Part shown: piece by piece, positions 25,692-51,968 of the stretch | Layout of the letters: the number at the start of each line of letters is the position of its first letter | How positions within the stretch are numbered: the stretch's first letter is position 1 | Assembly: GCA_028532985.1 (NCBI GenBank) | Contig: JANCIK010000007.1 | Span: 2,852,001 to 2,916,000, forward strand | Direction of reading: 5' to 3' | Length of the DNA: 64,000 nt | Source of the DNA: Stropharia rugosoannulata | Taxonomy: Eukaryota > Basidiomycota > Agaricomycetes > Agaricales > Strophariaceae | Translations under genes and position numbers: made by a program | The notes under the pieces: model-generated | What the model saw: the letters and a program-made list of their open reading frames with translations, nothing else | What the model was told of the DNA's origin: nothing | Database searches by the model: none

Positions 25692-25693
25692 TC

Positions 25694-29102: not shown

Positions 29103-32100
29103 TGCGTCAAGGAGAGGTTGCGTTGATGTTTGATAGAGATGATCGCACGGGGAAGATAGAGATAGCGGGGTACGCACTACCAAAGAATAAGAAGCGATTT
29201 GGGAGCGCTGAGCTCAGGGATGTATACATGGCTCAGGCAGTACATGAAGCTAAGATGGAGGATGATGAAAAAGAAAGAATATACAAATATTTTCAGCAGC
29301 ACGAATGGCGCAAAGAGGAAGTAGTCAAGGGAAAGCCTAGAGGGCAGTTCCGCGCCTCGCACGAGGAACAGGTCCCTAGTAAGAGACAAGGAGTAACGCG
29401 TAAGCGCTTGACTGGCAAGAATGCCACAACCGTTACGGTGCTCGCAGGAAAGAAGTATAAGCCAGTGGCTGAGAAAGTCAGGCCCGTTTATCATAATTTA
29501 CCAGAGAAGTTTAGAATAGTAAGGGAGATTAAAGGAGACCCACTAAAGGACATGCCGCAATTGTCACCACATCCGCCAGACTTCGTACCCGCAGGTCTGT
29601 ACACCGCTGAGTGCATGGAAGGGATTGACAAGGCGCATGAAGGGGATTTCCTGTGGTCCGAGGAGCGCAAGTTGGTGCATCAGGTTTTCATGCAGCAGAA
29701 CGAGGCATTCGCATGGGATGACACAGAGAAGGGTAGATTCCGTACGGACTTCTTCCCTCCAGTAGATATTCCCACTGTAGAGCACACGCCTTGGGTATTG
29801 AAAAACATTCTGATACCACCTGGGATGTATGAGCGCGTATGTGAATTCATCGCCACCAAGATTCGCGCAGGTACGTATGAGCCCTCGAGCTCGTCGTACC
29901 GGTCGCGCTGGTTTACAGTGACTAAGAAAGACGGGGTCTCGTTCAGAATTGTGCACAGTCTTGAACCGTTAAATGCAGTAACCATTGCACATTCAGGACT
30001 ACCTCCAGCAGCGGAGAGTCTAGCAGAACACTTTGCGGGGTGCGCATGTGGCGGCATCCTGGACTTGTATGTTGGGTACGATGAGCAGCTGTTAGCTGAG
30101 TCCTCTAGAGACCTGACTACATTCCAAACGCCGTTCGGTGCGCTGCGCTTAGTAACCCTACCTATGGGATGGACGAACTCCGTGCCCATCTTTCATGAGG
30201 ATGTTGCCTATATATTACGCGATGAAATACCCGAAGTTACAGAGCCCTACATAGATGATGTACCTATTAGGGGACCTAAAACACGCTATGAGTTAGAAGG
30301 AGGAGGATACGAGATGATACCGGAGAATAAAGGAATAAGGAGATTTGTGTGGGAGCATATGTTGAATGTCAACAGGATCGTGCAGCGCATGAAGTACTCA
30401 GGAGGAACATTTAGTGGAAAGAAGTCCATACTGTGCGCGGCTGAGATAGTAGTGGTGGGGCACTTGTGCACATACGAAGGGCGCAAGCCAGCACCTGATA
30501 AAGTGCATGCGATCCTCAATTGGGGACCCTGCAAGAATATCAGTGATGTGTGCGCATTCATGGGTACAATGGGTCTGCTACGGATTTACATCTCGGATTA
30601 CGCGAAGCGCGCAGAGCACATACAGCGGCTATTGCGTGGGAAAGAGCCCTTTGAGTGGGGGCCCGCTCAGCAAGCTAGCATGGACTCGCTGAAAGACAGT
30701 GCGTGCAACGCACATTGCGTGAAACCACTGGACTACACATTGCCAGGGCCGATTACTTTGGCTGTAGACACATCATGGCGAGCAGTAGGATTCTATATTT
30801 ACCAGCAGGACCCACAAGATTCGAAGAAGAGGGTATATGCGCGCTTCAGATCAATACTGTTAACGGAACGTGAGCAGCGCTTCTCACAGCCCAAACGGGA
30901 GTTGTATGGACTCTTACGTGCGCTACAAGCCTGTTATTATTGGCTCATCGGTGCGCGCAAGCTGGTGGTGGAGACGGATGCCAAATACTTGAAGGGCATG
31001 TTGGATAATCCGGGCATGGGCTCTAATGCGACTATTAATCGCTGGATAGATAAAATACTTATGTATCATTTCCAGTTGAAACATGTTGCGGGCAAGACCT
31101 TTGGTGCGGATGGTTTATCGCGTAGGGAAGGGCAACCTGGAGATGAGGCGTACGCGCACTCCGAAGAAGATGATGATCAGGAGGTGGGACCGCTCGAATA
31201 TGAGAAAGTCTATGAAGATGACCCAGATCCCCTGGACTTTGAAGAATTCAAAGAACAGATCGATGATCGTGGTGGGTATCTATACACCGGCCTCCTCAAT
31301 GAGTTGTTTGAAGGTCCCACGGCGTGCAAGTTACCAGAAGTGCGCTCTATAGGCTGTTTCCAGCAGGAGCTCGAGCGTGCACGGAAAGAGACGGAAGCGG
31401 ACAAGCGGGCCGTGCAGGACTTCATACAGAAAGAAAGTGTGCCGCTCGCGCAGCGCGAGTACTTAGAGAAATTCATACTAGCACACGCGATACCCGACTC
31501 CAGAATAGAGGATCTGGAGGATGAGGAGTACGATGAGCGCGACAGGACGTCGGCAGGAAAAGATATGGATGAGAAATTGCCGATGATACGCTACTGGTTG
31601 CAGAATCCAACCACTAGGCCTAAAGGCATGACGGAGCGAGAATATCAGAACTTTACGAGGAATGCTCGTAACTTCTTCTTAGACAAGGACGGGCGGATGT
31701 ACCGGAGATCCATAGATGACGCGCATAAGTTGGTGATAGATCAGGCGCAGCAGACACGCATGCTGCGCTCAGCGCATGACAGCTTGGGGCACAGAGGAGC
31801 GTATGCTACGCGCAAACTGCTAGCTGAGCGCTTCTGGTGGCCTGAGTTGGAAAGGGATGTCTGCTGGTATGTGAAAACATGTCATGTCTGTCAGTTAAGG
31901 CAGAAGACAATCATCCAGATCCCGCGCACTGAGACACACATGCCGTCTATCTTCCAGCAACTACACGCGGATACTATGCACATGTCCCCGGCCTCCAATG
32001 GGTACAATTACATAGTGCACGGAAGATGTGTGCTGAGCTCATGGGCAGAAGGGCGACCATTAAAGAAAGAGAATGCTCATGCAATAGTGCAGTGGATATT

Positions 32101-34006
32101 CGAGGACATTATCTGCCGTTGGGGCTGTCTGCAAGAAATCATCACAGATAATGGGGGACCATTCCGCGCAGCGCTCAAGTATTTAGAAAAGAAGTATGGG
32201 ATTACAGGGATTACTATCTCCGCGTACAACTCGCAAGCGAATGGAAAAATAGAGCGTCCCCATTGGGACATAAGACAGATGTTGTGGAAAGCGTGTGGGG
32301 GGACAGAAGGCGCGCACAAGCGTTGGAGTAGATTCTTCTACCATGTGTTGTGGGCTGATCGTATCACTGTGCGACGAGGATTCCGGTGTTCCCCATTCTT
32401 CATGGTAACGGGCGCGCACCCCATACTACCATTCGACATAGCAGAAGCGACTTGGCTGGTGAAACTACCAGATCGCGTACTGACTACGGAGGAGTTAGTA
32501 GGGTATCGTGTGCGCTGTGAGGGGCTGGGGCTGGCCCCTCGTGAAAACAAGAATAACCATAAGGTTTACAACATAGATACACAAGAAGCGACATATCTGC
32601 CATAACGATCAGAAACTACTATTGGAAACTGAAAGAACAAGAAGAAGCACGAAATATGAAGACTGAGATATGAAGATGCAAGTTTATTCGAAGATATGAA
32701 ATATGTACATGATGAAACAAGAAGACAAGCACAAGGAAGACTCAAGATGTTATTACAACTCAATGGCAGATCAAGAAAGACAACAGCATCAGAGCAATAT
32801 TGGACTTCTGATGCCGACAACATCAGATCAATATTAACAATCTGATGTAACTATGGACCCACAAGGAAGTCAATCACATGGAAATACTCATACATATGAC
32901 CTGGGACAAAAATGGTGACAGATTCCGACGATATGCAAGGGTTTCCGACAACATGCAGGCGTGTGGTAGCAGAAAGCAGAAGAATCTCGACACAAACACA
33001 AGGGACATAGGTGTGGAGAGAGGGTTGGAGGAGATGTATGTTCAGGGGTGAACATGGAGATGATCCGGCCACAGGAAGATTTCTTGTGCTTGGGCTTGGT
33101 TTCCGAAGATAAGGAAATTTGTGGCCAAGATATGAAGCATGCTGTAGTGCAGCATGGTTTCCGACGAGATAAAGTCAGCACGGGCGGTCGGATCTTCGTG
33201 GATGTATATGGTACGATCTGGGCATGGCAACCAGACGGGTATTTAAGGAGTAGAATATCTCTGTACTTCTCCAGCTTCCTTCAGGGTTAAATTCTACCTA
33301 CACACATCATACCAGTTCGCATCGGAAACTGTTGTTTAAACTTCGTACACTGGAAGCTCCTTGTTGTAAAACAAGTAAAACCTTTTCAATGTGCTATCGT
33401 TGTACACACATTGCCTTCGCACATTGTGAACTATAGAGACAGGCTTTTCAGACCAGTCCAACCCAACTTCGCACCTCACAGCGCGCACTAGCCAAACATC
33501 GCGACACTGTAGAGGAGATGCACGTGCGAGTATCAAAGACGAAAAGAGATGCGATCAGGGCATTTGAAAAGAAGCACTCGGCTAAAATCCGTGACTATGT
33601 GTTTAGGCCAGGAGATGTAGTGCTAATGAGGAACTCGGGCATAGAATCCAGTCTGAACCGTAAGATGCTCGCACGATGGAACGGGCCTTACATCGTTATT
33701 GCACGAAAAGACAGTGGAGCATACTTAGTGGCAGAGATGGATGGTTCTGTGTTGAAGGATAAGGTGGCGGCGTTCCGCCTCATTCCTTACTTTGCACGAA
33801 GGCAGCTGCGCTTACCGGACGGCTTGGATGATATAATTGATCAGACCAAGGAGAACCTCGCTAAAATGTTAGAAGCGCCGGATTACGAGCCAGCTATTCC
33901 CAAAGATTATATCTTTGATGAGCCCGGTGTGCCCTCGGGTAGCGGCGCGCTTACAGCAGAAGAAGATGAAGAAGACGATGATGACTGGGGCGAAGAAGAC
34001 CCTTAG
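29102..34006 (+). pseudogene. Pol (RT-RNaseH-integrase) of element A, interrupted by solo LTR C1
   Basis: The frame runs from the ATG in TGATG (29102) to 32515. After removal of LTR C1 and one copy of its GCGC duplication it continues at 33485 to the stop at 34006. RT carries PYIDD (~residue 382), followed by RNase H (AVDTSW and later VETDAK). The integrase has the HHCC finger (HDSLGH ... CHVCQ) and the D, D, E residues in LHADTMH, TDNGGPF and GKIERPH. The part after the insertion holds a GPY-type module (RWNGPYIVIA) and an acidic tail. No chromodomain is seen. As it stands, the protein would end in residues read from the LTR, before the GPY module. In element B the same gene lacks this insertion. 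Confidence 0.9.
32516..33480 (+). mobile_element. Solo LTR C1 of a third LTR-retrotransposon family
   Basis: 965 bp with TGTGAGG at the start and CCTCACA at the end, flanked by a GCGC duplication (32512-32515 and 33481-33484). Removing it restores the pol frame exactly as in element B. The same sequence in inverse orientation is at 57038-58002, and I saw only one difference by eye. The 5' end contains a GAGGGGC/GCCCCTC stem-loop. No internal region of this family is in the window. Confidence 0.93.
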
Positions 34007-34133
34007 ATGTGCGAGCACCGTAGGAAGAAAAGTGACCACAATATAATATATTGGGTAGAGAAGATGGTGAATACAAAGAGAACTCGCTACAGACGCCCCT
34101 TTAAGGCGCACAGCGCACATTGAGCCAGGCTAT

Positions 34134-35443
34134 CTACTGGGCAGGTTTGTCCTCGGTAGCAGTAACTCCAGTAACATCGAGGCTGCGCTGCAAGATGACA
34201 AGCTGTTCGACAAGGAGCGTGCGGCGCTTGAGAATGAAGTCAACCTTGTGGAGATCACAAATGATCTCAGCCTGTAAATCGCCAATGAGGCGGTGCGTCA
34301 CCAACTCGGAAGGGTTACCCGTGTTGAGGGGTTCCTTCAGGAGGTTAGCAGCGGCGTCAAGGCAAGCATTGACCTTGTCGTTGTCTAAAACGAGAGAAGT
34401 GCCTGAGGGAGAATAGTCAGGAGAGATCAGTAAGAAAGTGGTGCGGTGCGCGCACCTTGCATAATAAAAGGAGAGTCGGGGAATGTAGGAACGCCCTCTG
34501 AGCCCAACCTGGCTTTCTTAGGAGAGGCCTCACCTGCGGCGGCATCACGGAATGAGCGACGAAGCTCGGTCTGGCGATAAGTCATGCCTCGACCAAGGGG
34601 GCGAGAGCGGTAACCGGGAGTGTCTCCGCGCTCGCACTGGTATTTCTATAAGAATCTAAGTGCACGCAGCGGAGACAAGTCAAACACACACCTGCTTGGG
34701 AGTATCAGGTGGCGCGGCGCGCTTCTTGTTAGGACTCGGCTCGGGTGTATGCTGCCTGCTGGGAGGACCTCCCTCAGTCGCGGCTTCAACTTTATCGTCG
34801 AGGGCCATCTTTTTGAGGAGCATGTAAAGTTGCATGTTAGTGATGTCTGGTAAAGAAACTAAGGTTAGCCACACCTTGTCATCGTCAGAGTCAGGAGATG
34901 TAGTACCTCCCGGCGCAGAGGCGGTCTCAAGGTCCGCAGTTGCGGAACGCATAAGAACGCAAATGTTGCGCTGCGCGCACCAAAGGGGATTAAGTATAGA
35001 AAAGGGTTAGGAACGGAACATACCAGTCCAGTAGGGGTATGGGTGCGCTGACGAGAAGCGGCAGCCTTGGCCTTGAGGACTTGTTCATGCAAGTTGATAA
35101 ATGCATTGGCGGCAGGGGAGAAGGAGCGAATGTGGTGATCAGCCTCGAGCGACGTATATATGGCACGAGTCTCATTGAGGATCTTGATAGCTTCATTGTT
35201 GTTTATAATGCGAGTGATACCACCGTGCGCGTCGCGCCAGCGGTTCTGCAATCGTGCCAGACGAAGTCAGTGACATACAACAAAGGAACCGCGCGATGCG
35301 CGCACCAGATCGGCAGCAAGCAGCTCCAAGCTGCCAGTATAATTTGCAGGAGTGGCAGAGGCCAACCCACGAATGTCCTGGATCAGCGAGAGCTGATGCT
35401 TGGCATTGGTGAAGTTAAAAAGAGGAGCATGAGTAGTAGCCAT
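34134..35443 (-). CDS. ag4 of element A: antisense spliced gene, unknown function, ~362 aa
   Basis: Exons (minus): 35306-35443, 35024-35245, 34692-34970, 34636-34456, 34402-34134. The first, second, fourth and fifth have exactly the lengths of the B homolog exons, and phases agree. The protein opens with a conserved ~45-residue block containing HQLSLIQDIRGLASA. It continues with NRWRDAHGGITRI and a helical stretch, an acidic and Pro/Ser-rich middle with basic clusters (NKKRAAPP), and a very conserved C-terminal helical part (NTGNPSELVTHRLIGDLQ). I recognise no known domain. A TATA box (GCTATATAAGC on the minus strand, near 35500) lies ~60 bp before the ATG. It is tail-to-tail with pol, 127 bp apart. 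Confidence 0.82.
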
Positions 35444-35969
35444 AGTGGTGGTTGAGAAAGTAGGAATAAGATGCGATGCGCTCGTACAGAGACGGTGAGC
35501 GCTTATATAGCATTCACTGGGATGATCAGCGCTGCGCGCAGCTGGTGACCGACCGAACAGCAGGCCCAAGGAGTTAAGGAAGGAGGGACTTTACAAAAGG
35601 TCCAGATGGGTCATAGCACAGGGCTACACCTGTCTGACGTTACATTCACGGAGATTGAGTGGGATGGAGGGGACCTGAATACAAGAGCCCATATAGCAAC
35701 AAGAGGTGGGAGGATCGTGCGCGCATTGCAGCAAAAGAGTGCGCGCATCAAGGGAGATGCAGGTCTTTCCCCGTTTGGCAAAATGATGTCTGTTTTGGGA
35801 TTGATGCCGAAAATGCATAACAATGTTACCCGACAGTCTTATTTCAAATACAGGGTCATGACACATGTACCAAGGAATAGATGCGAGCTATGACTATAGA
35901 TAGTTATCAATGGAAAGACAGCAAAATGTCAGTTCGGGAATTAAACATCCTAAGAAGTGATTGTCAGGG
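35444..35969. other. Spacer between ag3 and ag4 of element A
   Basis: Holds the ag4 promoter at its left end (TATATAA near 35500). The rest has no coding features. The words TGCGCGCA or GTGCGCGCA appear at about 35532, 35717 and 35741. Confidence 0.5.
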
Positions 35970-36488
35970 TCAGCGCAGCACACGAGGAGAAAGACCCACA
36001 GGAAAGAATTCCTCCTGGTAAAAGACCTGGGCGGCATAGTGGAGTTGTTGGAAGTGTTCAGAGTGAGGGAGGGTGCTGTAGCGCTCAGCATCAGTAGTAC
36101 CACACAAGCGCAGGACGAGCTCGCTGTAGTGAAGCTGCACGCACAAGTGCGAGATACGGGGCGAGTGGCATGTAGCTTCGGTCAGCGCCAGAGCCCGCTA
36201 CAAAGATGTCAGAGCCGTGCACGAAAAGGCTAGAAAAAGGGGACATGTGCGCACCGCATGGTCTTGAACATGATGCATCATGTCTAGGCAGATGGTCATG
36301 GGAAGCAGCGGTTCAGTCGCAGCCTCAAGAATAAAATGAAGGGCGCCTATGTAGATGCGGCAGACGCGCTCATGGTCATCGAGCGGAATATCAGCTAGCA
36401 CCTGCTTGGGTAGAGCAGCTAAGCACAAGAAGGAAGGATCGGACCTTGCGCGTTGAAGGAGATTACTTTCGGTATCGAAGGAGGGCAT
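35970..36488 (-). CDS. ag3 of element A: antisense spliced gene, unknown function, 132 aa
   Basis: Exon 1 is 36255-36488 (78 codons, exactly as in B) and exon 2 is 35970-36134. The protein starts MPSFDTESNLL and has conserved blocks ERVCRIYIGALHFIL, HHVQDHA (at the splice), LCGTTDAERY and YAAQVFYQEEFFPV. It is small, mostly helical and without a known domain. A TATATAT box lies ~45 bp upstream of the ATG on the minus strand. The intron begins GTGCGCAC, containing the A-family word. Confidence 0.82.
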
Positions 36489-36558
36489 GATGATAAAAGA
36501 CAAGTTCATTGAGGGATCATATATATCACTAAACGATCCATCAGAAACACGCACGGGC

Positions 36559-37039
36559 TCAATCGTAGCTAATATCATCTACTACAAGGGCAGCGTCGGG
36601 ATCTACGTCTAGAAGGGCAGTCCCTGTTGGTTCCGAGGGTGGGAGATTGTGAAAAGGCATGCCAAGATGGCTGTACCGATCGAGAATGTGAAGAGCGGCG
36701 TTGCTGAGCAGGCGCGCATCGAAATGATCATCGCTGAATCTGCGCTGAGCGCGGCCTTCATAAAACACGATCGCCATGACTAAAGACAGGAATTGGCGAT
36801 TGAAATCGATAAAGCGCAAAGGCAGTGTAATGCGATCCTGGAGGAAAACGTCAGCAGAGGAAGCGTTTGCATGAACATAAGGACTTTACCAGTGCGCGCA
36901 CGAGGGACTGAGCAGACTGTAGAGGAAAGTGAAAAGGGCCGTTGTGGCAGTCCTCTGCAAGTTCTGCATGAATGGCGAGTTGCCTCAATAGCGCGGTAAA
37001 TTGGCGAGCAACAGCGGTGCGCTGATATCGGAGAGCCAT
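36559..37039 (-). CDS. ag2 of element A: antisense spliced gene, unknown function, 142 aa
   Basis: Exons 36890-37039 and 36559-36837. Exon 2 has the same 93 codons as in B, and the second exon is the best conserved part of the cassette (PLRFIDFNRQFL, SDDHF, LLSNAALHILDRYSHLGMPFH, DPDAALVVDDIS). No domain is recognised. The promoter is compact: TATAAAT, then the palindrome TCAACTG-TCCC-CAGTTGA, then the ATG about 20 bp further. Confidence 0.85.
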
Positions 37040-37059
37040 AGCAGAGAGTAAAGAAACTC

Positions 37060-37097
37060 TCAACTGGGGACAGTTGAATTTATAGTGGGGGGGAGAG
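37060..37097 (-). promoter_or_regulatory. ag2 promoter of element A with palindrome and PPT-like tract
   Basis: On the minus strand: CCCCCCC, CACTATAAATT (TATA), then a perfect inverted repeat TCAACTG/CAGTTGA with 4-nt spacer (37060-37077). On the plus strand the same place reads TATAGTGGGGGGGAGAG, closely matching the true PPT before the 3' LTR (TTAGTGGGGGGGAGA at 56167-56181). It may act as an operator, an internal PPT, or both. Confidence 0.7.
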
Positions 37098-37531
37098 ATG
37101 GCCTAGCCAAGCGGAGATAAACCTAGGTGCTTAAGGAGATACTGCAGGAAGAACAAGAGCTCAGGGCAGAAGTAAAAGCTGGCTGGCACATACACACATG
37201 CATGTCTTTCATATGCACGCATCGCACTTATACTCGCCCACTGTAAAAAGACAGGAGCAGAAGTTAGTGGGCAGTTACAAGCAAGTGGACACGGGTCATA
37301 TGCGCGCATGGCACTGGTAGCCGCTCAAAAGAAACCAGGCTAGTAGACATCTTAAAAAGGCAGAGAGAACTTAAGATCACACAGGAGGAAGATAAGAAGA
37401 TAATGATAATTCCAAAGCATATAATAGTAAACAAAAACTACTCTACATATGCTAGATAGAATAGTTAGGAAGGGAACAGGAAAGAAGTACAAAATGAAAA
37501 CAAGCGCCAAAATGCGCGCCCCGCAGCAAGA
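37098..37531. other. Spacer between ag1 and ag2 of element A
   Basis: No gene seen. Contains short words of the A family (ATGCGCGCATGG at about 37301, and CACGCATCGCAC). Confidence 0.5.
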
Positions 37532-39503
37532 CTAGGCCCCCATATTATCGCCATCCTCTTCCTCAGCGGAGACCTCGGGGCTCGAGTCGTCGACAACGAC
37601 GGGAGAGGACTTGTAAGACCGAACAGGAGCCTTGCCTTTGCCTTTGCCTTTACCCTTGCCTTTGGAAGTCGCAGGGCGGACTTTGGAAGCCTTAGAAGGC
37701 TGGGGAGCGTGAATAAAAGAAGAAGGATCTTGACAAGGATGGTCGGGGTGATAGAAAGAGGAAGAGGGCAGAGAATCAATTGAAGGGCGGGAGTCCAAGG
37801 GTTGGCAGAGCGCATTGTAAGAAGCACAGAGCTGCTTGAGGTCCATAGAACGAAGGGTGTCGAATGTTTCGCAGTCAGCGAAACGGGAGCCAATAATCAC
37901 ATTAGTGGGCAGGGTCACGGCCACAGCCTGCACGAGCTGCACAAGCTGGATGAGTTCAGCGAAATAGAGGCGCTGAAGGCCTCGACGAGCTTCCTCAGCG
38001 GCGCGCGCTTGCTGACTGAAAGCTTCAATACAGGCAAAAGAGGCATGTAATTCTAGAAAGAAGGAGAACCATAAGTAATAGAAGAAAAGAAGAAAAGGGA
38101 GATGCGCGCACCACGGGGAGAGGTGCGATACCAGCCAGAAGTACCCTCCAAGGCGCTGTCGAGCTCAGGGCCAGTCATGGTATGCAGGCAAGGGCCTTGG
38201 CCCCCTAGGCGGCAACCTGCGCATTTCCGGCCAGGACCGCGAAGGATGCAAAAGTGCTTCAGTGAGGGAGTGGTGGAAGAGTCGTCCTGCGGGCGGCTGC
38301 AAAGTGAGCAAGTAAAACCAGGCTAAGGAAGGAACAATAAATAAATGCTAAAAGAAGAAAAATGAAGGGACAAACGATGATCGCTTCGCGCAGAGCTTCC
38401 TCAGGTGGGAGTTGGGCCATGCTTAAGGTGTCTGGCAAGGGGTCGCCAGCCAGGGCCAGGGACGCATGATAGATGCCAGGCAGGAGGTTGTAGATGGGGT
38501 ATGTCGAGTGGTACTGCGACTTGGAGGAATCTATGCCTTTCAAGCGGGGCAGCTCTTCGAGGCCGCTGGGAATTGCCTCTAAGGAAACGACCTTGGTACG
38601 CGAGGTGCGTACCTGAGGAACAGGCGGAGAGGCGCGCACGGTGGAGGGCCCCGCTAACGCCTCCTGAATCACTAAAAACAAAAAGAAAAGAAGGGTGTCA
38701 AATAAAAGGGATAAAGCTGCAAAGAAAGAATACATACCAGCTGCTTTGCGGGTACGCTTGGCGATGGGAATAGCAGGGACAGGCAAGGTGGAGATGGGTA
38801 CGAGCGCAGCGCGCTTGCGTTCGGAAGGGGGAGCAGGCGCGGAATCGACAGCTGGAGGTAATACGAGGTCCGGAGAAGGAGGGGGAGGGGTTGGCGAAGG
38901 AGCGGCGCGCTTTCGTTTGGCGGGTGCGACAGGAAGGGGCTCGACTGGCAGGGGATCTGGAGAGGGAGGGGGTGGTGTGGGCGAAGGCGAGTCGCGCCTC
39001 TCTTCGACGGGAGGGGCGGGCGTTGAGTCAACAACTACCCCACTGGACTCCCCCATCTCCACGTCGGCGCTGGTAGACGCAATCGGCACATATTGGAGGC
39101 GAGGCTCGGGCTCGTCTCCGGGGGTCCAGAGCAAAGGGAAAGCCGTGGCGAAAGCCCCCCGGTATGAGAGAAGCTAAGACGCGGGGCGTGCAGCGCACAT
39201 AAGCAGTTGAAGGAGAAATAAAATAAAATAAAAGACATACCGGTTCGAGCAATGGCTCTGAGTACCAAGCCGGCCGTTTAGTCGGGTCCTGCGTGTCCCG
39301 ACCGAAGGAAGAGGTAGTGTCAGTCAGGCTCAAGATGGACAGGATGAGCGCGAGCTCGCAGATGCCGGCGTGGTGCGAAAGGTCCTGGGGAAAAGCTATC
39401 AGGTGGGCTTCGAGGCCCGCGGCAAGCGAGTCCCGATAGGTGTTGAAGAGGGTCGTTTGGGCGGTATCGAGAGTGTCGAGGTCACCAAGGTCCTCGAACG
39501 CGT
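37532..39503 (-). pseudogene. ag1 of element A, 3' part (split by insertion of element B)
   Basis: This is the larger part of a spliced gene whose 5' 110 bp now lie at 55511-55620. Exons here (minus): 39241-39503 (rest of exon 1), 38738-39173, 38376-38671, 38112-38322, 37532-38052. Counting the 4-bp duplication once, all phases agree and the gene would encode ~610 aa, against 611 in B. Visible parts: a helical N-terminal region, a long Pro-rich low-complexity stretch with basic NLS-like clusters (AKRKRAA, SERKRAA, AKRTRKA), and a conserved block before a Cys-rich module (CSLC, then C, C-x2-C and C). It ends in a C-terminal domain with ALCQP and NVIIGSRFADCETFDTL and a GK-repeat tail. The frame is open up to both insertion edges, so it was intact when B landed. 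Confidence 0.85.
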
Positions 39504-40912
39504 TGAGAGGTCTGCCGCGGGGCTAGACTCGAATCACAAGAAAACACAACACACACAACCCCAGCGGAGCGAGATCCTATCCCCTAGATCGAGCGACGCT
39601 CTTCAGCTAAGCGGATTATAGATGTCTACGCTTCTCCTGGTCCTCTCCGCTGAGCGGACTGTGATGTTTAAGAGTCTCATAAGTTTAGTCCAGATGTCCG
39701 CTGTACAGTGCCTGCAAGTTCGTTTTTAAGGAGGGGTTTAATTCTAGAAGTCTCAGATTAATGTCTGGGCGATCTCCGCTGAGCACAGGGTATCGATAGT
39801 AATGTATAGTTTTGATGGTGGCTCCGCGGGGCTTATTCCGCTGAGTGGGTTTGAGGTCCTGCAGATGCTCACACAAGCTGGTATTCCCAATTGTGCCTCG
39901 CTCCGCTGACTATCCAAAGTCGTTCCGCTGGGACTGTCCAAAGTCCTATTCCGCTGAGGCTATCCAGAACCTCGTTCACCCGGTGGTGCAGTCTCAATTC
40001 ACAAAACACTACAGCGCGAGTTTTCGTACACGGTTGCACTGACTCCCCGCTGAGCTCTCCAAATGACCCGGTGGCCAGAAGCTATCCAAAACTTCTATGA
40101 TTCACAATACACTTCACAGTAAAGACCCTAACAAAAGCTAAACACAGCCTGCTGATGGTCTGGGACGGAGCCCAACACACAGATCTAGTGGGTAGACAAT
40201 TGCTTAATTTCCGTAGTTACAATTACAAGTTTATATAGACGCGCGCTGTGTACTAATTTAGGTGGAGAGTAAATACTAGCAACGCCGGACCAAAGGTCCA
40301 CTGGGCGCATGTGCCTCCGCTGGGCGTTTTGATGACTACTCCGCTGAGCGCGACCTGACCCCGTTGTGTTGCCAGCCTCCGCCGAGAGACGTCATTAAAC
40401 TCCGCTGAGCGGTTCCTTCTTGGTTATTGAGGTCTGGTTACCGCTGCCAAAGTTCCCCAGCGGAGCCCGTGCTGTGTGCATTGTTCATTCCCTCGGGCAT
40501 CACACGCTCCAGCGTGCGCGCCACGGTCACCTGACGAGTGGACTTAGGCAAATTTCGCCTTCGTGATGTGTTCCGCTGGGCCCCTTTTGAGACACTGTCT
40601 ACACACAATCCTGCTCGTCGCCTTTGATATTTTTCTGCTCAGCTGTACTCCTGCCTTCCGCTGGGACGACAGTAACCGTTATGTGCTCCGCTGACGGCTA
40701 TTCCCGGTAATCCAACTGTGTACTTATGACTCGTACAGTCCGCTGAACCCCCACACAACCGCCCGCTGAGCACACGCGTGATGATTTGTGATGCACGCGC
40801 TGAGCACTGAGACGACTGACCAGGCTAGTCACCGCTCCGCTGTACCCCTGCACTCCAGCCCAAACCGCCCGCTGTGGCCACTTACAGCCTTGGTGTAAAC
40901 GCAGGCCTGTCA
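39504..40912 (-). repeat. 3' LTR of element B (1,409 bp)
   Basis: On the plus strand it runs from TGAGAGGTCTGCC to GGCCTGTCA. Against the other LTR I see only a 2-bp GC indel in a GCGCGC run (near 40241) and two single changes (near 40806 and 40901). By eye it contains more than 20 copies of CCGCTG or CAGCGG, where chance would give about one. The stretch ~39960-40212 is homologous to LTR A downstream of its TATA box. Confidence 0.95.
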
Positions 40913-40950
40913 TCTCCCCTTCACTAAAAATTTTGACTGTCCTCAGTCAA
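40913..40950 (+). promoter_or_regulatory. PPT of element B and adjoining palindrome upstream of ag1
   Basis: On the element sense strand (minus) AAGGGGAGA stands directly before the 3' LTR, a normal PPT. Next to it on the plus strand is the perfect inverted repeat TTGACTG-TCCT-CAGTCAA (40933-40950), preceded by CACTAAAAATT. Element A has the same palindrome at the same place (56145-56162). Confidence 0.75.
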
Positions 40951-41345
40951 GCTCTTCCTGTATTTTTAGACCTTAGTACTGTCCCCGCGTGCACTTTTAG
41001 TGCCTCATTTTCTATTTCCAGCTTCCTTGGGCGCCTATTTGCCTATCTTTAGCCCTCGGCCGTCTCCGATGGCCACTTTCATTGTTATCTGTTTCTCTCT
41101 CCGTTTAAGCATATTCTTTCCTTTTTCCAGTCTTGTGCCGCTGCTTCTAAACCCCGCTCTCTATGTAGGTCACCTGAAAGTTTATATGACGCCGCCACCC
41201 CGTATTTTATCTTCCAGAAAATTCCTCCGCTGGGCGAACATCTGCCTTATAAGCGTCTCGTAGGGCTTTCCCCTGCCTTTCATTCTTTCCCCCCCCTCCT
41301 TTTTCTACAGACCACCTGTGCCCTTCTCTTATCTTCCTTATCGCT
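40951..41345 (+). promoter_or_regulatory. Upstream region of ag1 in element B
   Basis: Pyrimidine-rich 5' region of ag1. A TTTATATGA near 41180 is the best TATA candidate. A 5' UTR intron cannot be excluded. Confidence 0.4.
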
Positions 41346-43357
41346 ATGTCCTTCAGGAACTTCGACCGCCGCCGCCGTGCGCAAGAATGCGCTGAGGCGG
41401 AGCTGGACGCCCAGGACCGCTTTCGTCGACTTCGCCCTGCGCTCGCTGTGTACCAAGAATTCGAAACCCTGGCCGGCGCTGCTAACCTGTCCGATGATGG
41501 GCTGGCGCGTTTGGAGGATCTTCGGGTGGTCATCGACGACGCTGTCGAAGACCACTTGAGCCTTCACTGTTCTGACGGTCTTTACCACAGCGGGGTTCGC
41601 AAGTTCTGCATCCTCCTCTCCGCTGTGGCTGGCATGCTCATCACGGACGACCCCTCCCTGGCTCCGACGCTGCAAGCGCGTCGCTGGTTCACGAGCAGTC
41701 ACCAGCCGCTAGCCTCCTATATTCATTTTTTTGCGACCGCCTTCCCCGCTCAGTGGGATGGCTCTTCCACTCCAGGCCCTCGCCCACTGTTGGGTTCCGC
41801 TCCGCACCCCTCCCCAGATCCCATTTCGCTTAGCGCTGCCCCCACGGTGGAGGATATTATTATGATTTCCGACGACGAAGTTCAGCGGCCCTCGTCTCCT
41901 TCGCCCGCTGTGCGCAAGGATAAGCGAAAGCGCCTTCCCACTCCCCCTGTCGTCGTCGTCCCTCCCACGCCGCTCCCCAAGCCTACCAAACGTCAGCGCC
42001 CCGCCGCACTTGCTGCCAGTGCCGCTATTGCTGGTATGTCTCTGCTTGACACCCTGCTCGCCCTTTTCTTCACTGACCTTTCCACAGCCCAGGCAGATCT
42101 CGAGTCCCCAGCGGGGAGTTCTTTTGTCCGCTCCGCTGGCGGCCCTCCTTTGGCCCTGACTGACAGCGGAATTGAGGAGATCACGAATACTCGTCCCGAC
42201 AGTAACAAGGTCGCCTACAAGTCTACCTACCCGATTCTCGATGTCCTGCCTCCTGTGTTTTCTGCTAAGCTCGCCCTGGCTGGTGCCCCTCTCCCCGACG
42301 CTATTGATATGAGCATGCTCCCTTCCGAGTCCCGCCTCGAAGGCGCGATTATCGTACATGTTTGATCTCCCGCTGTGGCTTCTTATTTTATTTTATTTTT
42401 ATTGACTTGTTTTCTCTTCCTCAGAGAGGAATGGTGTGCAACCACTGCGCGCGTCCCTTCAACGCTCGTATAAACGAAGGCCTCCATCAGTGCATCTGCC
42501 GTGGGTGGGCACGGAATTGCTGCACTTGCAGTACCCAGCAAAAGGGGAAATGTCTCTTCTGTTGCGAGCCCGCGGAGGTCGACAAGACTATTGAAGACTC
42601 CTCCCTGTGGCATCGCACATCCTTGACTAGTAAGTCTACTTTCTATCCCATCTATTATTCTGACTTATGATCTTCTTTCTTTCTAGGCCTTCTGTCTGGC
42701 TTCGCTCGCCTCAGCGCCTACACAGAGCAGGCTCGCGTGGCTGAAGAGCAGCGCCGCTCCGCGGAGCGCATGTTCTTTGGTCAACTAATTGAACTTTCCC
42801 AGCTGGCGCGCGCCATGGCGCTCACTCTTCCCACCGGGATTATTATTGGCCCGCGCTTCCACGATTGCGAAACATTCGACGTGCTCCGCTGCCTTGACCT
42901 CGACCGCCTCCACGAGGCCTACGCCTCTCTTTGTGCCCCCGCCGTCGTGGACGATCCTCTCATCGTTGCCCCCGCCGCCTCTTTCTATGACCCAAAGCAC
43001 CCGTGCTTTGATCCTACCACCTTCATTCCCGCCCCCCAGCCTGATCAGGCTATAACTCTAGAGGCCTTCAATGCGGCCGAATCTCAAGCTTTCGAGGACG
43101 CGACCCTCCGCCAAGCTGAAGAGGCCGACGCTATCATCGCAGCGGAGAAGCTCAAACGCTCGCGCGATCGTTCGTCCAAAAGAGGAACTCCCGCGGAAAG
43201 CTCTCTTCCCACCACTCCGTTCGCCAGTACTTCGCGCCTCGAGCCCTTCACCGCTGCTTCCAAAGGCAAGGCCCCCGCTGTGGTTCGCACCTTCCTGACT
43301 CCTTCGCGCGTCCCTAGCGAGGTAGACGCTGCCGAGGTTCCCGCGGAGGGGGATTGA
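41346..43357 (+). CDS. ag1 of element B: antisense spliced gene with Cys-rich module, 611 aa
   Basis: Exons 41346-42033, 42088-42359, 42425-42629 and 42687-43357 are in phase. The protein has a charged helical N-terminus (MSFRNFDRRRRAQE), a conserved ASYIHFFATAFPAQW block, and an acidic hydrophobic stretch VEDIIMISDDE that resembles a SUMO-interacting motif. Basic clusters KDKRKR and KPTKRQRP look like nuclear signals. The Cys-rich module in exon 3 (CNHC, CIC, CCTC, CLFCC) probably binds zinc. It closes with a conserved C-terminal domain (TGIIIGPRFHDCETFDVL) and a low-complexity tail. Same order of parts and three shared intron positions as in A; A has one extra intron. I do not recognise the family. 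A nuclear nucleic-acid-binding protein is an inference from the basic clusters and cysteines. Confidence 0.83.
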
Positions 43358-43730
43358 GGTCAGGCGCACGCTTCCGCTGGTTGTCAGGCCTTGGGGCCTT
43401 TATTTCTCTTTTCTACACTTCTTGTTCCTCTGCTCCTTATTACTTTATCTGGCATATGTAAAGTAATTAGATCTTGCTATAATTAAATATGCCTGTTTGT
43501 TCCCGTCTTCTTTGTGTGAGTCTGAACCTTCCTAAGTCCTTAGCTATAGACTCCGCCCAGCTGAGAAACTTGCAGACCTCTGAAGAGGTGTCCTAATTGT
43601 TGGCCGGGTTCTCCTACAGCTGACTCTCTTCTGCTAAGTGTTTGCTGGTATACTTTCTCTTCTTCTCAGGTCCGCTCAGCGGACTTCTTTTTCCCCACAC
43701 GTGCTCCGCGGCCATATTTTTGCGGGCTCT
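43358..43730 (+). other. Spacer between ag1 and ag2 of element B
   Basis: No gene seen. Holds the end of ag1, with a TC-rich segment and then AT-rich DNA, and a CCGCTCAGCGG palindrome near 43672. Confidence 0.5.
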
Positions 43731-43766
43731 CTCCCCTTCACTATAAAATCAACTGTCCTCAGTTGA
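43731..43766 (+). promoter_or_regulatory. ag2 promoter of element B with palindrome and PPT-like tract
   Basis: CTCCCCTTCACTATAAAA (TATA at 43742) is followed at once by the perfect inverted repeat TCAACTG-TCCT-CAGTTGA (43749-43766), 31 bp before the ag2 ATG. The other strand reads TTTTATAGTGAAGGGGAG, nearly the PPT of this element. Same arrangement as 37060-37097 in A. Confidence 0.75.
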
Positions 43767-43797
43767 CCGGCTCTTTATTCCTTTTCCTCCTTTAGAC

Positions 43798-44269
43798 ATG
43801 CAACGCTACCAGCGCACCAATGTCGTGCTCCAGTTCACCTCCCTCCTCAAACAGCTGGCTGTCCATGCTGAGCTCACCGAAGACTCCGCTGAAACTACGA
43901 TTCACCTGCCTTTGCAGTCAGCGCCGGCCGTTGTCCGCGCGCTGGTAAGGCTCAGTTTTGTAGATTCCCCTCCGCTGACCATCTCCACAGGACCGCATTG
44001 CCCTTCCGCTGAGATTCATCGACTTTAATCGCCAGTTTCTGGCGTTCCTCATGACCATCGTGTTTTACGAGGCCCGCGCTCAGCGGAAGTTCAGCGATGA
44101 TCATTTCGATCCTCGCTTACTCAGTAATGCCGCTCTACGCATTCTTGACCGATACAGTCATCTGGGCATGCCCTTCCACCCGCTGCTTTCTTCCGAACGA
44201 AATGAGGCCGAAATTCGCGAAGTCGATCCTGATGCCGCGCTTGTCGTAGACGACATCAGCTCTGATTAG
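43798..44269 (+). CDS. ag2 of element B: antisense spliced gene, unknown function, 141 aa
   Basis: Exons 43798-43944 and 43991-44269. It begins MQRYQRTNVV and contains LLKQLAVHAELTED, LPLRFIDFNRQFL, SDDHFDPRLLSNAAL, LDRYSHLGMPFH and a DPDAALVVDDIS end. Roughly 60-70 percent of aligned residues match A by eye, and the second exon has the same length. It looks like a compact helical protein without any known domain. Confidence 0.85.
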
Positions 44270-44332
44270 GATGTCCCGCTGCGCTGGCACTCTGCGTATA
44301 TAATTCTATCCCTTGTATTCCTATACGTAAAC

Positions 44333-44877
44333 ATGCCCTCTTTGTCTGCTGAGAGTAACCTCTTGTTAGTTGCCCATTCAGATCCTTGCATCCTTCGTCT
44401 CGACGCTCTGCCCAGGCGTCTGCTGAGTGCTATCCTTCCCATCGACCTAGCTCGAGTCTGCCGAATATATGTAACTGCCCTTCATTATATCCTGGACTCC
44501 GCTGTGGAGGAACAGCTACCTATGAGTGTCTGCCTCCCACTGCTTAACCGAGTTCAAGATCACGCCGTAAGCCCCTTTTCTGCTGTCCATGCACTCCCAC
44601 TGAGTAGTCCGCGCAGCGCGGCCTAGAGCTGACCGAGTCCACCTGTCATTCACCGCTTCTTTCTCATCTCTGTGCTCAGCTGTATTACACCGAACTTGTG
44701 CTACATCTGTGTGGTACCAACGATGCTGAGCGCTACGGCATTCTTAATCACACCGAACACTTTCAACGCCTCCATTACGCCGCCCAGCATTTCTACCAGG
44801 AGGACTTCTTCCCCGTCTGTCCCCTTTTCTCTTCCTTCCCCGCTGCGCTGAGACCAAGATTATGTCAGGATGTTTGA
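44333..44877 (+). CDS. ag3 of element B: antisense spliced gene, unknown function, 143 aa
   Basis: Exons 44333-44566 and 44680-44877. Exon 1 is the same 78 codons as in A, with SAESNLL, RVCRIYVTALHYIL and RVQDHA at the splice. Exon 2 has YYTELVLHLCGTNDAERY and FYQEDFFPVC. A TATATAA box lies ~35 bp before the ATG. The C-terminus runs about 11 residues beyond that of A. Confidence 0.82.
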
Positions 44878-45328
44878 GGTATTGCGCCCCTTCCTTGGTT
44901 TACTCCGTAGGGTACCCTTGTTACAGTAACCAGAGTAAATGGCTATTACATGTGGTGCCTCCTTTGCTATTTGAAATGACAAGTATCTAGTTAGGCACTA
45001 TGTATTGTCGGTGCCAATACCTGATTCGGACATAATTTTCCCATATGCGGTAATCACGATCAGCCTCCGCTGAGCGCTTTCAGCTAGGCGCGCTTCTCCG
45101 CTGGATCTCATTTCGTCTATCAACTGCTCCCGCTCTGCACCCCGTTTTATGCGAGCGTGCATGTGGTGGTCTGTCTCTACCTCCAGCGTTCATACCATAA
45201 CTCCGCTGGGAGTCTGGTCCGCTGGGATGCCACATTCCTCACCGCTGGCCGCCCCTCATTAGGTCCTCTGCGCTCCGCTGAGCCTATATATATGCCCTAC
45301 TCTCCTACTTTGAATCACTCAGCTACTA
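44878..45328 (+). other. Spacer between ag3 and ag4 of element B
   Basis: No gene seen. TATATATAT near 45286, about 40 bp before the ag4 ATG, is its likely TATA box. CCGCTG words are frequent. Confidence 0.5.
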
Positions 45329-46642
45329 ATGTCCAACGCACCCGCTCTGCTGTACAACTTCAGTAATGTCAAGCACCAGCTGGCATTAATCCAAGATATC
45401 AGAGGCTTGGCTTCTGCCATGCCTTCCAACTATACCGGGAGCCTCGAGCTTCTGGCTATTGACTTAGTACGCACAGCACTTAGCTGGTCTGCTGGGTCTT
45501 TTACTCCGCTGACCACTCGAACTTTTTAGAACCGCTGGCGTGATCCCCACGGCGGCATTACTCGTATCATTAATAACAGCGAGGCTGTTGATATTCTCAA
45601 CGAGACGCATGCCATCTACACCTCCTTGGAGGCGGATCACCACTTCCGCACTTTCTCTCCCGCTGCCAACACTTTTATCACTCTGCATGAGCAAGTTTTA
45701 AAAGCGAAAGCCGCTGCTTCGCGCCAGCGCATGCATACTCCCACTGGACCAGTACACTGTGTGCTTGCTGCCTTTCTTTATCTTTTTAATCGTCTGCTCA
45801 GCGCAACGTTCGCCTCCTCTCGCGCTCCGCTGCCGATCCTGAGACGGTCTCTGCCCCCGGAGGTACCTCCTCCCCCGATTCTGATGACGACAAGGTGTGA
45901 CTGACTTCCTCACCCTTTTAGATATTACTAACATGCAGCTGTACCTCCTCCTTAAAAAGATGGCCCTCGATGACAAGGTCGAGGCTGCCACTGAGGGCGG
46001 AGTACCTAGCCGCCAGAATACCCCAGAGCCTAGTCCTTCGAAGAAGCGCTCAGCGCCTCCTCCCGACACTCCTCGTCAGGTTCGTTCTGTTGCGTTTTCC
46101 CTCCCTCGTTACTTTCTTACTTCTATGTCAGCGGGAGCGCACTGAGGCCAGCGGACATCGCACTCGTGCGCTTGGCCGCGGCATGACACTCCGCTCCTCT
46201 GACAACCGGCGCTCTCCGCGCGACACACTGTTCCACGACGCTTCCTCTAAGAAGGCCCGTCTCGGCGCTGACAGCGTTCCTACTTTCGCTGATTCTCCTT
46301 TCATTGTACAAGGTGCGCTTTTTGCCCTTATTCTTCTCTGTTGCGTCCGCTGAGCTCTTTCATTTTCTTTTAGGTACCAATCTTACTCTCTCGAACGACA
46401 AGGTCAATGCCTGTCTCGACGCTGCTACCAACCTCATTAAGGAACCGCTGAACACGGGGAACCCATCCGAGCTCGTCACTCGCCGTCTCATCGGAGACTT
46501 GCAAGCTGAGATCATCTGTGACTTGCACAAGATTGACTTCATCCTAAAGTGCCGCGCTCTGCTCGTTAAAGAGTTAGAGACTTTACAGCACAGCTTGGAT
46601 TTGACAGGGACCAGCCCCGCTGAGGAGCCCGCGCCACAGTGA
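45329..46642 (+). CDS. ag4 of element B: antisense spliced gene, unknown function, 347 aa
   Basis: Exons 45329-45466, 45530-45751, 45802-45894, 45939-46079, 46132-46312, 46374-46642. The third intron is only 44 bp but has a perfect TACTAAC branch site before its CAG. In A the same stretch reads through without a stop. Conserved parts: HQLALIQDIRGLASA, NRWRDPHGGITRI, LYLLLKKMALDDKVEAATEGG, the acidic and basic middle (PSKKRSAPPP), and the C-terminal NTGNPSELVTRRLIGDLQAE. No known domain. Convergent with pol, 120 bp apart. Confidence 0.82.
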
Positions 46643-46762: not shown

Positions 46763-49700
46763 CTAAGCATCGGGCTCCGCCCACCCATCCTCATCATCAT
46801 CTTCTTCGTCCGCTGAGACTTGGCCACTGCCTGAAACCACTCCTGGTTCATCAAATATGTAGTCTTTAGGTATGGCCGGCTCGTAGTCTGGCGCTGACAT
46901 CATCTTGTTGAGGTTCTCGCGCGTTTGATCAATGATATTGTCTAAGTCCGCTGGCAGCTTTAGCTGACGCCTGGCAAAGTAGGGTATTAAACGGAATGCT
47001 GCGACTTTGTCTTTCAGCACCGACCCATCCAGCTCAGCGACTAGATAAGCGCCTCCTTCCTTCCGCGCGATGACAATGTATGGTCCATTCCAGCGCGCCA
47101 ACATTTTGCGATTTAAGCTGGACTCAATGCCAGAGTTACGCATCAGTATGACATCGCCAGGTTTGAACGCATAGTCCCTAATCTTAGCGGAGTGTTTTCG
47201 CTCAAACTCTCTGATAGCATCCCGCTTTATCCTTGACACCCGCTGACGCATTTCCTCCACTGTGTCCCTATGCTTGGCCAGCACGCGCGCACGATACCCT
47301 ACTAACTCCTCTGTGGTAAGTACACGATCTGGTAACTTGACCAGCCACGTCGCCTCAGCGATGTCCAGCGGTAGTATCGGGTGCGCGCCAGTGACCATGA
47401 AGAAGGGTGAACACCCAAATCCGCGGCGCACTGTAACGCGGTCTGCCCACAGCACATGGTAGAAGAACTTGCTCCAGCGCTTATGTGCGCCCTCGGTACC
47501 ACCACACGCTTTCCACAACATTTGTCTGATGTCCCAATGGGGCCGCTCTATCTTTCCGTTCGCCTGAGAGTTGTACGCTGAGATGGTAATCCCTGTAATA
47601 CCATACTTCTTTTCTAAGTACTTGAGCGCTGCGCGGAACGGTCCACCGTTATCTGTGATTATCTCTCTAAGACATCCCCAGCGGCAGATAATATCCTCAA
47701 ACATCCACTGCGCTATCGCCCTTGCATTCTCTTTCTTCAGCGGACGACCTTCCACCCATGAGCTCAGCGCACACCGTCCGTGCACTATGTAGTTATACCC
47801 ATTTGAGGCAGGTGACATGTGCATAGTGTCCGCGTGTAGCTGCTGGAAGATGGAAGGCGTATGTGTCTCTGTCCGCGGAATCTGGATAATCGTCTTTTGC
47901 CTTAGCTGACACACATGGCATGTCTTGACATACCAGTAGACGTCCCGCTCCAGCTCTGGCCACCAGAAGCGCTCCATCAACAGTTTGCGCGTGGCGTATG
48001 CGCCTCTGTGCCCCAGACTGTCATGCGCGGCACGCAACATACGCGTCCGCTGAGCGGGATCAACTACTAGTTTATGTGCCTCGTCCACTGAGCGCCGGTA
48101 CATCCGCCCATCCTTGTCTAAGAAGAAGTTTCGTGCGTTACGGATGAAATTCTGATACTCCCGCTCGCTCATATCCTTGGGTCTTGTACTGGGATTTTGC
48201 AGCCAATACCTTATCATTGGCAGCTTATCATCCATGTCCTTCCCCGCTGACGTTCGGTTCCGCTCATTGTACTCTTCGTCTTCCAACTCATCTATCTTTG
48301 ACTCTGGAATTACATGTGCCAGAACAAATTTCTCTAAGTATGCCCGCTGAGCGGGCGACACCTCCTCTGTCTGTAGGAAGTTACGCACTGTCCACTGTTC
48401 TTCTCTCGTCTCTTTTCTCGCCCGCTCCAGTTCTAACTGGAAACAGTCAACCGAATGTGCCTCCGTTCTAGCTGGCTCAGCGGGACCATCAAACAACTCG
48501 TTGAGGAATCCAGCTTGTAGATATCCTCCGCGGTCGTCAATCTGGTCCTTGAACTCTTCTAAACTCAGCGGATCGGGATCCTCTTCATACACTTTCTCGT
48601 ACTCCAGCGGACCTACTTCTTGGTCATCATCCTCCGCTGAGTGCTCATACTCTTCATCTCCTGGTTGTCCTTCTCATCGCGACAGGCCGTCCGCGCCAAA
48701 CGTTTTGCCTGCTACATGCTTCAGCTGAAAGTGGTACATAAGGATCTTGTCTATCCAGCGGTTAATGGTAGCGTTAGGTCCCATGCCCGGATTATCCAAC
48801 ATCCCTTTGAGATATTTGGCATCCGTTTCCACTACCAACTTCCGCGCTCCGATGAGCCAGTAATAGCACGCCTGCAGCGCTCGCAATAGCCCATATAGCT
48901 CTCTCTTTGGTTGTGAGAACCGCTGTTCCCTCTCAGTTAACAGAATTGACCCAAAGCGGGCGTACACACGCTTCTTCGCGCTCAGCGGATCTTGCTGGTA
49001 GATATAAAATCCTACAGCACGCCAAGACGTATCTACTGCCAGCGTGATCGGTCCTGGCAGTGTATAGTCCAGCGGCTTGACACAGTGTGCGTTCCGCGCT
49101 CCATCCTTCAGTGCATCCATACTGGCTTGCTGCGCTGGCCCCCACTCGAAGGGTTCTTTCCCACGCAACAATCGCTGTATGTGCTCCGCTCGCTTAGCGT
49201 AGTCTGAGATGTAAATACGCAGGAGCCCCATTGTACCCATGAAGGCGCGCACATCGCTGACATTCTTACACGGTCCCCAGTTGAGGATAGCGTGCACTTT
49301 ATCTGGCGCTGGCTTTCGACCTTCGTAGGTACATAAGTGTCCCACCACCACAATCTCCGCTGCGCACAATATGGATTTCTTTCCGCTGAAAGTCCCTCCT
49401 GAGTACTTCATCCGCTGAACTATCCTATTCACATTCTGCATGTGTTCCCACACGAAACGCCTGATTCCGCTGTTCTCTGGAATCGTCTCGTACCCTCCAT
49501 CCTCTAATTCATACCGTGTCTTCGGTCTGCGGATAGGCACATCGTCAATGTACGGCTCCGTGACGTCTGGTATTTCATCGCGGAGAATATAAGTCACATC
49601 TTCATGAAAGATGGGTACAGAATTGGTCCAGCCCATTGGTAAGGTTACTAAGCGGAGCGCACCAAACGGTGTCTGGAATGTTGTCAAGTCGCGAGACGAC

Positions 49701-51963: not shown

Positions 51964-51968
51964 CAGAC

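Follow-up and report, generated by a model that had tools for sequence, protein, structure and literature searches.

Why would a retrotransposon carry a set of genes with predicted introns on the strand opposite to its own gag and pol? The question is raised by a 64,000-nucleotide stretch of Stropharia rugosoannulata DNA (contig JANCIK010000007.1, positions 2,852,001 to 2,916,000, here called the window), which is part of contig C7; genome searches covered this one genome of 48 Mb and 20 contigs. Hydrophobin genes mark the genome as fungal, with 46 matches here and none in 14 control genomes. Two Ty3/gypsy-type long terminal repeat (LTR) elements of ~16 kb each lie in the window, A on the + strand and B on the − strand, and both hold four genes, ag1-ag2-ag3-ag4, antisense to gag-pol between pol and the 3′ LTR and in identical order. 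Each family has a short DNA word of its own scattered through the element, and Ag1 is the protein that differs most between the two. We tentatively propose that the cassette is an accessory set of a Ty3/gypsy clade that would serve sequence-specific self-recognition, most likely anti-silencing. The family-specific words, which did not figure in the initial annotation of this DNA, give the first lead on ag function.

A four-gene antisense cassette in two nested elements

The two elements are of the Ty3/gypsy (Metaviridae) type, which is characterized by two LTRs, a short target duplication, gag, protease, and reverse transcriptase (RT)-ribonuclease H (RNaseH or RH) placed before integrase. Pfam matches comprise protease, RNaseH and Integrase_H2C2, with the zinc knuckle in gag below cut-off, and the RT-RH of B matches structure chains of Ty3 (4ol8, E 5e-22; 7q5b, E 6e-21). 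B occupies 39504–55510, is flanked by a 4-bp target duplication (GCGT) and is nested in A's ag1, with A resuming at 55511. Because the LTRs of A are only 93.9% identical (848 comparable positions), versus 99.9% in B, A is the older element.

Exons and introns of the ag genes were modelled from sequence alone, and all modelled introns in A and B are GT-AG and 46–89 nt long. The modelling recovered the same four antisense genes in the same order in both elements, as had been claimed; the interval originally assigned to the two sets, 34134–46642, does hold them but also includes the B 3′ LTR (39504–40912) and leaves out the first part of A's ag1 (55511–55620). Two exons make up ag2 (150 + 279 nt in A, 147 + 279 nt in B) and three make up ag3 (234 + 198 + 9 nt in both). 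The exon lengths first reported as shared stand for ag3 exon 1 (234 nt), ag2 exon 2 (279 nt) and the 138, 222, 181 and 269 nt of ag4, except that ag4 has six exons rather than four; those of A measure 138, 222, 64, 155, 190 and 269 nt, and the fifth reaches 181 nt only if its acceptor is moved 9 nt downstream. A TATA-like box lies upstream of each ag gene in B. No Pfam family matches any of B's Ag1–Ag4 at E ≤ 1. An envelope function was rejected, since no envelope-like transmembrane stretch was found in ag1–ag4 of A and B, where the top 19-residue hydropathy is 1.64. The features of the two elements are as follows.

24480..25694, + strand: element A 5′ LTR, 1215 bp
25771..32512, + strand: A gag, protease open reading frame (ORF) and RT-RNaseH-integrase ORF, frames overlapping
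32513..33482, no strand assigned: unrelated 970-bp repeat within A's pol
33483..34060, + strand: A pol C-terminal part, end approximate
34134..35443, − strand: A ag4, six exons
35941..36488, − strand: A ag3, three exons of 234, 198 and 9 nt
36559..37039, − strand: A ag2, two exons of 150 and 279 nt
37532..39503, − strand: A ag1 3′ of the B insertion, pieces of 263, 436, 296, 175 and 521 nt
38112..38286, − strand: A ag1 cysteine-cluster exon
39504..40912, − strand: element B 3′ LTR, dense in sense-oriented CAGCGGA
40936..40947, + strand: core of palindrome TTGACTG-TCCT-CAGTCAA, adjoining the B polypurine tract
41346..43357, + strand: B ag1, four exons of 688, 266, 205 and 671 nt
42425..42629, + strand: B ag1 cysteine-cluster exon
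43752..43763, + strand: core of second palindrome copy TCAACTG-TCCT-CAGTTGA, just upstream of B ag2, TATA-like box adjoining
43798..44269, + strand: B ag2, two exons of 147 and 279 nt
44333..44877, + strand: B ag3, three exons of 234, 198 and 9 nt
45329..46642, + strand: B ag4, six exons of 138, 222, 61, 158, 181 and 269 nt
46763..54038, − strand: B gag-pol, four ORFs overlapping or abutting
54104..55510, − strand: element B 5′ LTR, 99.9% identical to the 3′ LTR
55511..55620, − strand: A ag1 exon 1, first part, severed by the B insertion
56182..57035, + strand: element A 3′ LTR, interrupted by the 970-bp repeat

The third intron of ag4 (B 45863–45921, A 34847–34906) encodes TSSPDSDDDK / TTSPDSDDDK, with the A–B differences mainly at third positions; left unspliced, it stays in frame in A and runs into a stop in B. 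This intron may be alternatively spliced. Over nearly the full length of gag-pol in A and B (window 24001–54000) the sense strand is purine-rich, and the antisense genes are pyrimidine-rich.

Linkage to pol, selection and a third family

The 89-residue last exon of A's ag4 served as query for the genome search. At least 97 matches were found; 95 of the 97 listed are stop-free, and they merge into 93 loci. The matches form an A-like group (mostly 90–100% identity) and a B-like group (mostly 72–80%). At all 93 loci listed, a pol C-terminus lies no more than 1.5 kb away on the other strand; ag4 is present at 93 of the 95 A/B-type pol loci among the best 150 of 192 pol candidates. Capture of a host gene was rejected on this linkage: the listed hits are antisense to pol rather than unlinked host genes, and at 93 loci the cassette is no single chance capture, contrary to an outcome that the initial annotation had set against its own proposal.

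Seven further cassette loci were read (L040–L046), and a 285-bp stretch retrieved with them was set aside. Six carry all four ag genes in the same order, with single genes partly decayed (ag2 and ag3 in L041, ag4 in L042, a deletion in ag3 of L044). The exception is L045, where ag1 is replaced by a B-type stretch comprising LTR and gag (95.7% over 4138 bp), and ag2 and ag3 have one stop each; this locus was considered as an intermediate with the words of both families and rejected, as the B-type stretch occupies the place of ag1.

The ag genes are under purifying selection within families, like pol. Nei-Gojobori ratios of nonsynonymous to synonymous divergence (dN/dS) were calculated for within-family pairs, leaving out ag3 of L041 and ag1, ag2 and ag3 of L045 (stops or gene missing), and lie between 0.07 and 0.36 in 40 of 41 pairs including pol: 0.10–0.21 for ag1 (8 pairs), 0.10–0.36 for ag2 (8), 0.11–0.18 for ag3 in six of seven pairs, 0.07–0.18 for ag4 (9) and 0.07–0.20 for the pol C-terminus (9). 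The remaining ag3 pair, A against the partly deleted L044, gives 0.48. These values, far below 1, agree with the earlier proposal that selection keeps the ag genes, and together with the pol linkage they support the view that the genes serve the element. The comparison originally suggested, A against B, says little, as dS is saturated or nearly so (saturated in ag2, ag3, ag4 and pol).

Protein identity between A and B is 91% in RT-RH, 83% in Gag (zinc knuckle nearly identical) and 78% in the protease ORF, versus 76% in Ag4, 72% in Ag2, 64% in Ag3 and 36.5% in Ag1. Strong change is confined to the cassette proteins, Ag1 above all, and Gag and RT show no such change. Synonymous divergence singles out the same gene. 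Family A has dS of 0.80–2.15 in ag1 versus 0.08–0.57 in the other genes and pol of the same pairs; the single B pair shows a gradient from ag1 to ag4 (0.55, 0.50, 0.30, 0.09; pol 0.14); and in a third family, C, introduced below, dS runs from 0.46 to saturation in ag1 exons versus 0.02–0.21 in other gene pieces. A-type cassettes share 87–98% nucleotide identity in ag2–ag4 and 52–84% across ag1, with the minimum near the ag1 start, and ag1 of L043 is a mosaic, its first part like L044 and its second part like L040. The high dS of ag1 and this mosaic therefore suggest that old ag1 variants have moved between elements that are otherwise alike, a pattern that would fit a gene engaged in an arms race.

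Family C is a pol lineage at ~51% identity (L047, L054, L057, L058) with an LTR-like repeat of 1845 bp and ~6 kb between pol and LTR; one element spans ~16.4 kb (C10:1889404-1905818), if both repeat copies there are its LTRs. Its antisense strand carries an ag1-like gene in five pieces matching A's five exons (junction 3/4 approximate), with dN/dS of 0.05–0.07 in four exons between two copies; dS is saturated in exon 1, which in L058 is interrupted by a stop. Overall, C Ag1 is 23% identical to B; its last four cysteines can be aligned with those of A and B, as can the stretch behind them. C ag1 is probably, though not certainly, homologous to A/B ag1. Three further antisense sets of open frames stand in the places of ag2–ag4 and are called syntenic only; profile comparisons of ag2 and ag3 with the C genes are at chance level, and that of ag4 with the C ag4-like protein gives E 0.14 (score 17.2 versus 15.2 for shuffles).

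Hidden Markov models (HMMs) of ag1–ag4 have no significant match in the flanks L047–L053 (best E 0.11) or in L054–L058 (best E 0.073). In the sister pol lineages 4, 5, 6, 8 and 9, similarity between copies ends 1.1–1.9 kb into the fetched 3′ flank, judged from a pair of copies in each of lineages 4 and 5, from ~20 copies in 9, and in 6 and 8 with an LTR-like repeat present. Because these five lineages appear to be without an antisense cassette, it looks as though the cassette was acquired on one branch of the pol clade. Behind the lineage-7 pol, L051:2779-4661 holds 23-bp tandem repeat arrays (CCTGTTTTCTCGGCTCTCGAGTG) on both strands; the repeated words of L051 had been considered as a scattered family word and were set aside as these arrays.

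Beyond this genome, a protein database searched with the ag1 alignment gave no match at E ≤ 0.01. The ag4 protein has one match, a metagenomic protein of 220 residues (P0001; 41% identity across 52% of the query), which suggests that ag4 also occurs in another organism. With pol as query, 1251 proteins among 7995 scored reach E ≤ 1e-5, and the clade is common in metagenomes. The same query gave no relative in viral contigs or in bacterial and archaeal contigs, and ag1 has no match among solved structures.

In all three families a palindrome adjoins the polypurine tract, its arms showing compensated changes (TTG/CAA, TCA/TGA, TCG/CGA), and a second copy lies just upstream of ag2 in A and B, with a polypurine stretch and a TATA-like box. 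Both copies are present in A, B, L040–L044 and L046, the ag2 copy in L045, and the LTR-edge copy in L054 and L058. The palindrome might form a hairpin or serve as a central polypurine tract.

Family-specific words and a candidate reader

Words were found by k-mer counting and chosen from L054 and from the A and B elements of the window, to which the other copies are related. TGCGCGCA, a perfect palindrome, has 10–22 sites in each of six A elements and none in five B or C elements. CAGCGGA occurs 48/9 and 35/5 times (sense/antisense) in two B elements and at most twice in A and C, and WACCGGGY 16/3, 15/2 and 11/2 times in three C elements and never in A and B. Eight control sequences (the 30-kb rest of the window and seven flanks of ~8.5 kb, mostly neighbouring DNA rather than cassette-free element) contain 0–3 family words per strand. 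Compared with dinucleotide shuffles, the top words reach z 12.4–29.8 in five A and B sequences and 8.4–10.7 in two C sequences, where 60 shuffles of each sequence reach at most 5.6–7.2; three of the eight controls stay within their own shuffles. A and B thus stand out clearly, C moderately. Gaps between words are irregular (16–520 bp in B, 22–1153 in A, 25–1699 in C) and not tandem.

Within B, CAGCGG (both strands) amounts to 14.9 per kb in the two LTRs, 7.8 in the non-coding cassette (introns 8.1, spacers 8.0), 6.4 in ag coding DNA and 6.9 in gag-pol, versus 0.43 per kb in the rest of the window. In A, TGCGCGCA reaches 5.6 per kb in introns and 3.5 in spacers, versus 0.28 in ag exons. Coding DNA was compared with 500 synonymous-codon permutations, which keep codon usage but not codon-pair bias. 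CAGCGG exceeds all 500 in four of four B gag-pol ORFs, the permuted ORFs retaining ~1/5 to 1/4 of the observed number; among the ag genes of B it is enriched in ag1, ag2 and ag4, not in ag3. In A, all three gag-pol ORFs are enriched in GCGCGCA (P ≤ 0.016). The L044 copy abounds in TGCATGCA and TGCACGCA, which look like deaminated TGCGCGCA and suggest CpG methylation of old copies; DNA-methyltransferase matches lie at four places in the host genome.

Among the flanks, L053:1384-7121 is a KDZ DNA transposon (Pfam KDZ, CxC2) with its own scattered word, ATGCATGAC / GTCATGCATAAC; GTCATGCATAAC was rejected as a fourth family word, as it falls within the transposon and outside the neighbouring pol element, which extends only to 1383. 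L055:1222-6340 is a repeat with proline-rich open frames and 26 copies of CCGCCGG, both strands together.

Ag1 is the candidate reader because it changes from family to family, which is the behaviour expected of a protein that recognises the words. Four cysteines, C-x8-C-x2-C-x7(A, B) or x9(C)-C, align in A, B and C, with an extra C-x2-C preceding them in B, C and L044; basic stretches come before the cluster and a Q/R/E-rich stretch after it. Zinc-cluster proteins prefer CGG, and CGG or GCG is contained in all three family words. The Zn(II)2Cys6 pattern reads C-x2-C-x6-C-x5-12-C-x2-C-x6-8-C; Ag1 of C departs from it (C-x2-C-x8-C-x8-C-x2-C-x9-C), as does that of B, with 14 residues between Cys 2 and 3.

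We envisage that Ag1, or an Ag complex containing it, binds the word of its own family (TGCGCGCA in A, CAGCGGA in B, WACCGGGY in C). Binding along the whole element would keep the DNA open for gag-pol and ag transcription, each family's Ag1 would ignore the other families, and the other Ag proteins may act as partners of Ag1. Separate ag mRNAs are possible because TATA-like boxes lie upstream of the genes in B and the genes are predicted to be spliced; such mRNAs would be made from the DNA copy, independent of genomic RNA.

Other repeats of the window are as follows. The 970-bp repeat in A's pol has an inverted second copy at 57036–58005 (99.9%), inserted in A's 3′ LTR. A pair of inverted 660-bp repeats (97%) has one copy in the left part of the window (10744–11403) and one at its right end (63343–64000); at 11462–12239 lies a tandem array whose units are spaced 126 bp apart.

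Competing explanations and related systems

Several observations weigh against word reading by Ag1. Three families yield at most three words. Four of the eight controls slightly exceed their shuffles (z 7.0–8.0, near the weaker C values), with words such as poly-C, CGCGCGC and TCCTACGA; CCGCCGG is a strong word (z 17) of the control L055, in a repeat beside the pol element; and the KDZ transposon in L053 has a word of its own as well. TGCGCGCA is hardly enriched in A coding DNA (P 0.14, 0.02 and 0.19; one of three gag-pol ORFs). As for the protein, a Pfam search of Ag1 finds no zinc-cluster domain, the first C-x2-C is absent from some A-type Ag1 models, and the cysteine-cluster exon is 56–91% identical to A among A elements that have one common word. 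HMMs of A/B ag1 do not detect C's ag1, and profile comparison of the two gives only E 0.029 (score 25.3; 10 shuffles ≤21.7). The pol clade is common in metagenomes, yet there is one ag4 match and no ag1 match there. Finally, 54 CAGCGG sites in B non-coding DNA are sense and 5 antisense (both copies of the identical LTR sequence counted), and this sense bias, seen in the C word too, is no less compatible with a role at the RNA level.

Such a role is the core of an alternative that we regard as unlikely, in which the words would act within the genomic RNA as signals for its packaging, export or stability, and either Gag or a Rev-like Ag protein would recognise them. The bias of CAGCGG in B (38:4 in the LTR, 16:1 in the non-coding cassette), a like bias of the C word and the encoding of accessory genes separately from gag-pol would suit it; against this, TGCGCGCA is a perfect palindrome, as expected for a DNA dimer site, and Gag with its zinc knuckle is nearly the same in A and B though the words differ, so that Gag itself was thought unlikely as the reader. 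Alternatively, Ag1 might be a plain transcription activator or repressor (Tat-like) for which the words in LTRs and promoters matter and the others are by-products. CAGCGG is densest in the LTRs, TATA-like boxes precede the B ag genes, and the cysteine cluster of Ag1 is followed by a Q/R/E-rich stretch; words are nevertheless enriched far from promoters, including at synonymous sites throughout B gag-pol, and we rate this explanation as rather unlikely. The words might also be unselected, having spread within each family by slippage, template switching or gene conversion, while the cassette does something unrelated. Scattered words do occur in other repeats of the genome, copying along one strand could produce a sense bias, and the permutations preserve codon usage rather than codon-pair bias. 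Such spreading seems improbable, given the irregular, non-tandem gaps of the B word (16–520 bp) and its synonymous enrichment in four B ORFs.

The proposed anti-silencing by Ag1 recalls VANC proteins of Arabidopsis, which counter silencing of VANDAL transposons via short non-coding words, protein and word co-evolving (PMC5735166; PMC10398659). As far as these sources describe it, the likeness lies in an accessory protein encoded by the transposon, in family-differing short words dense in non-coding DNA (YAGTATTAY for VANC21) and in an accessory protein that diverges faster, VANC than transposase. According to the same accounts, VANDALs are plant DNA transposons and VANC words are tandem repeats, whereas here a fungal retrotransposon carries several genes and dispersed words. 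B's Ag1–Ag4 have no Pfam match. The resemblance is one of logic, and on the fungal side the function is a prediction from sequence.

Antisense ORFs in LTR elements are known as aORF-3R of the plant elements Grande, RIRE2 and Retand; the available account mentions no family-specific word there (PMC7264820). The initial annotation knew of no spliced four-gene antisense set in a fungal gypsy element. An additional antisense gene is, however, already described in a fungal gypsy, brtn of the Boty-like elements of Botrytis (Zhao 2011, as cited in PMC7264820; PMC8365987); compared by description only, those sources name one gene, versus four here. In a literature search that took in few subscription papers, we recognised no report of a fungal gypsy element with several antisense genes, nor of a retrotransposon-encoded anti-silencing factor. 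Fungal transposons also carry TET/JBP dioxygenase genes, thought to counter DNA methylation; these encode enzymes and are carried by DNA transposons, and the same source reports none in a retrotransposon (PMC12730594, 2025).

More doubtful than the general proposal is its fuller form, in which the clade would have evolved self-recognition independently of VANDALs and with unrelated proteins: Ag1 would read a private word that covers the entire element, in B extending even into synonymous codons of gag-pol; protein and word would change together between families; each family would protect only itself; and an arms race with the host would maintain divergent, recombining Ag1 variants. If true, this would be, to our knowledge, the first such self-recognition system in a retroelement.

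The function of antisense genes in LTR elements is described as an open question (PMC7264820). Here, three families with three diverged Ag1 proteins and three private words offer a built-in clue to it, and the prediction follows that Ag1 of A, B and C bind TGCGCGCA, CAGCGGA and WACCGGGY, respectively. If this is true, sequence-specific anti-silencing by mobile elements would have arisen at least twice, and word-reading proteins of changeable specificity would exist in a fungal protein family without known domain.

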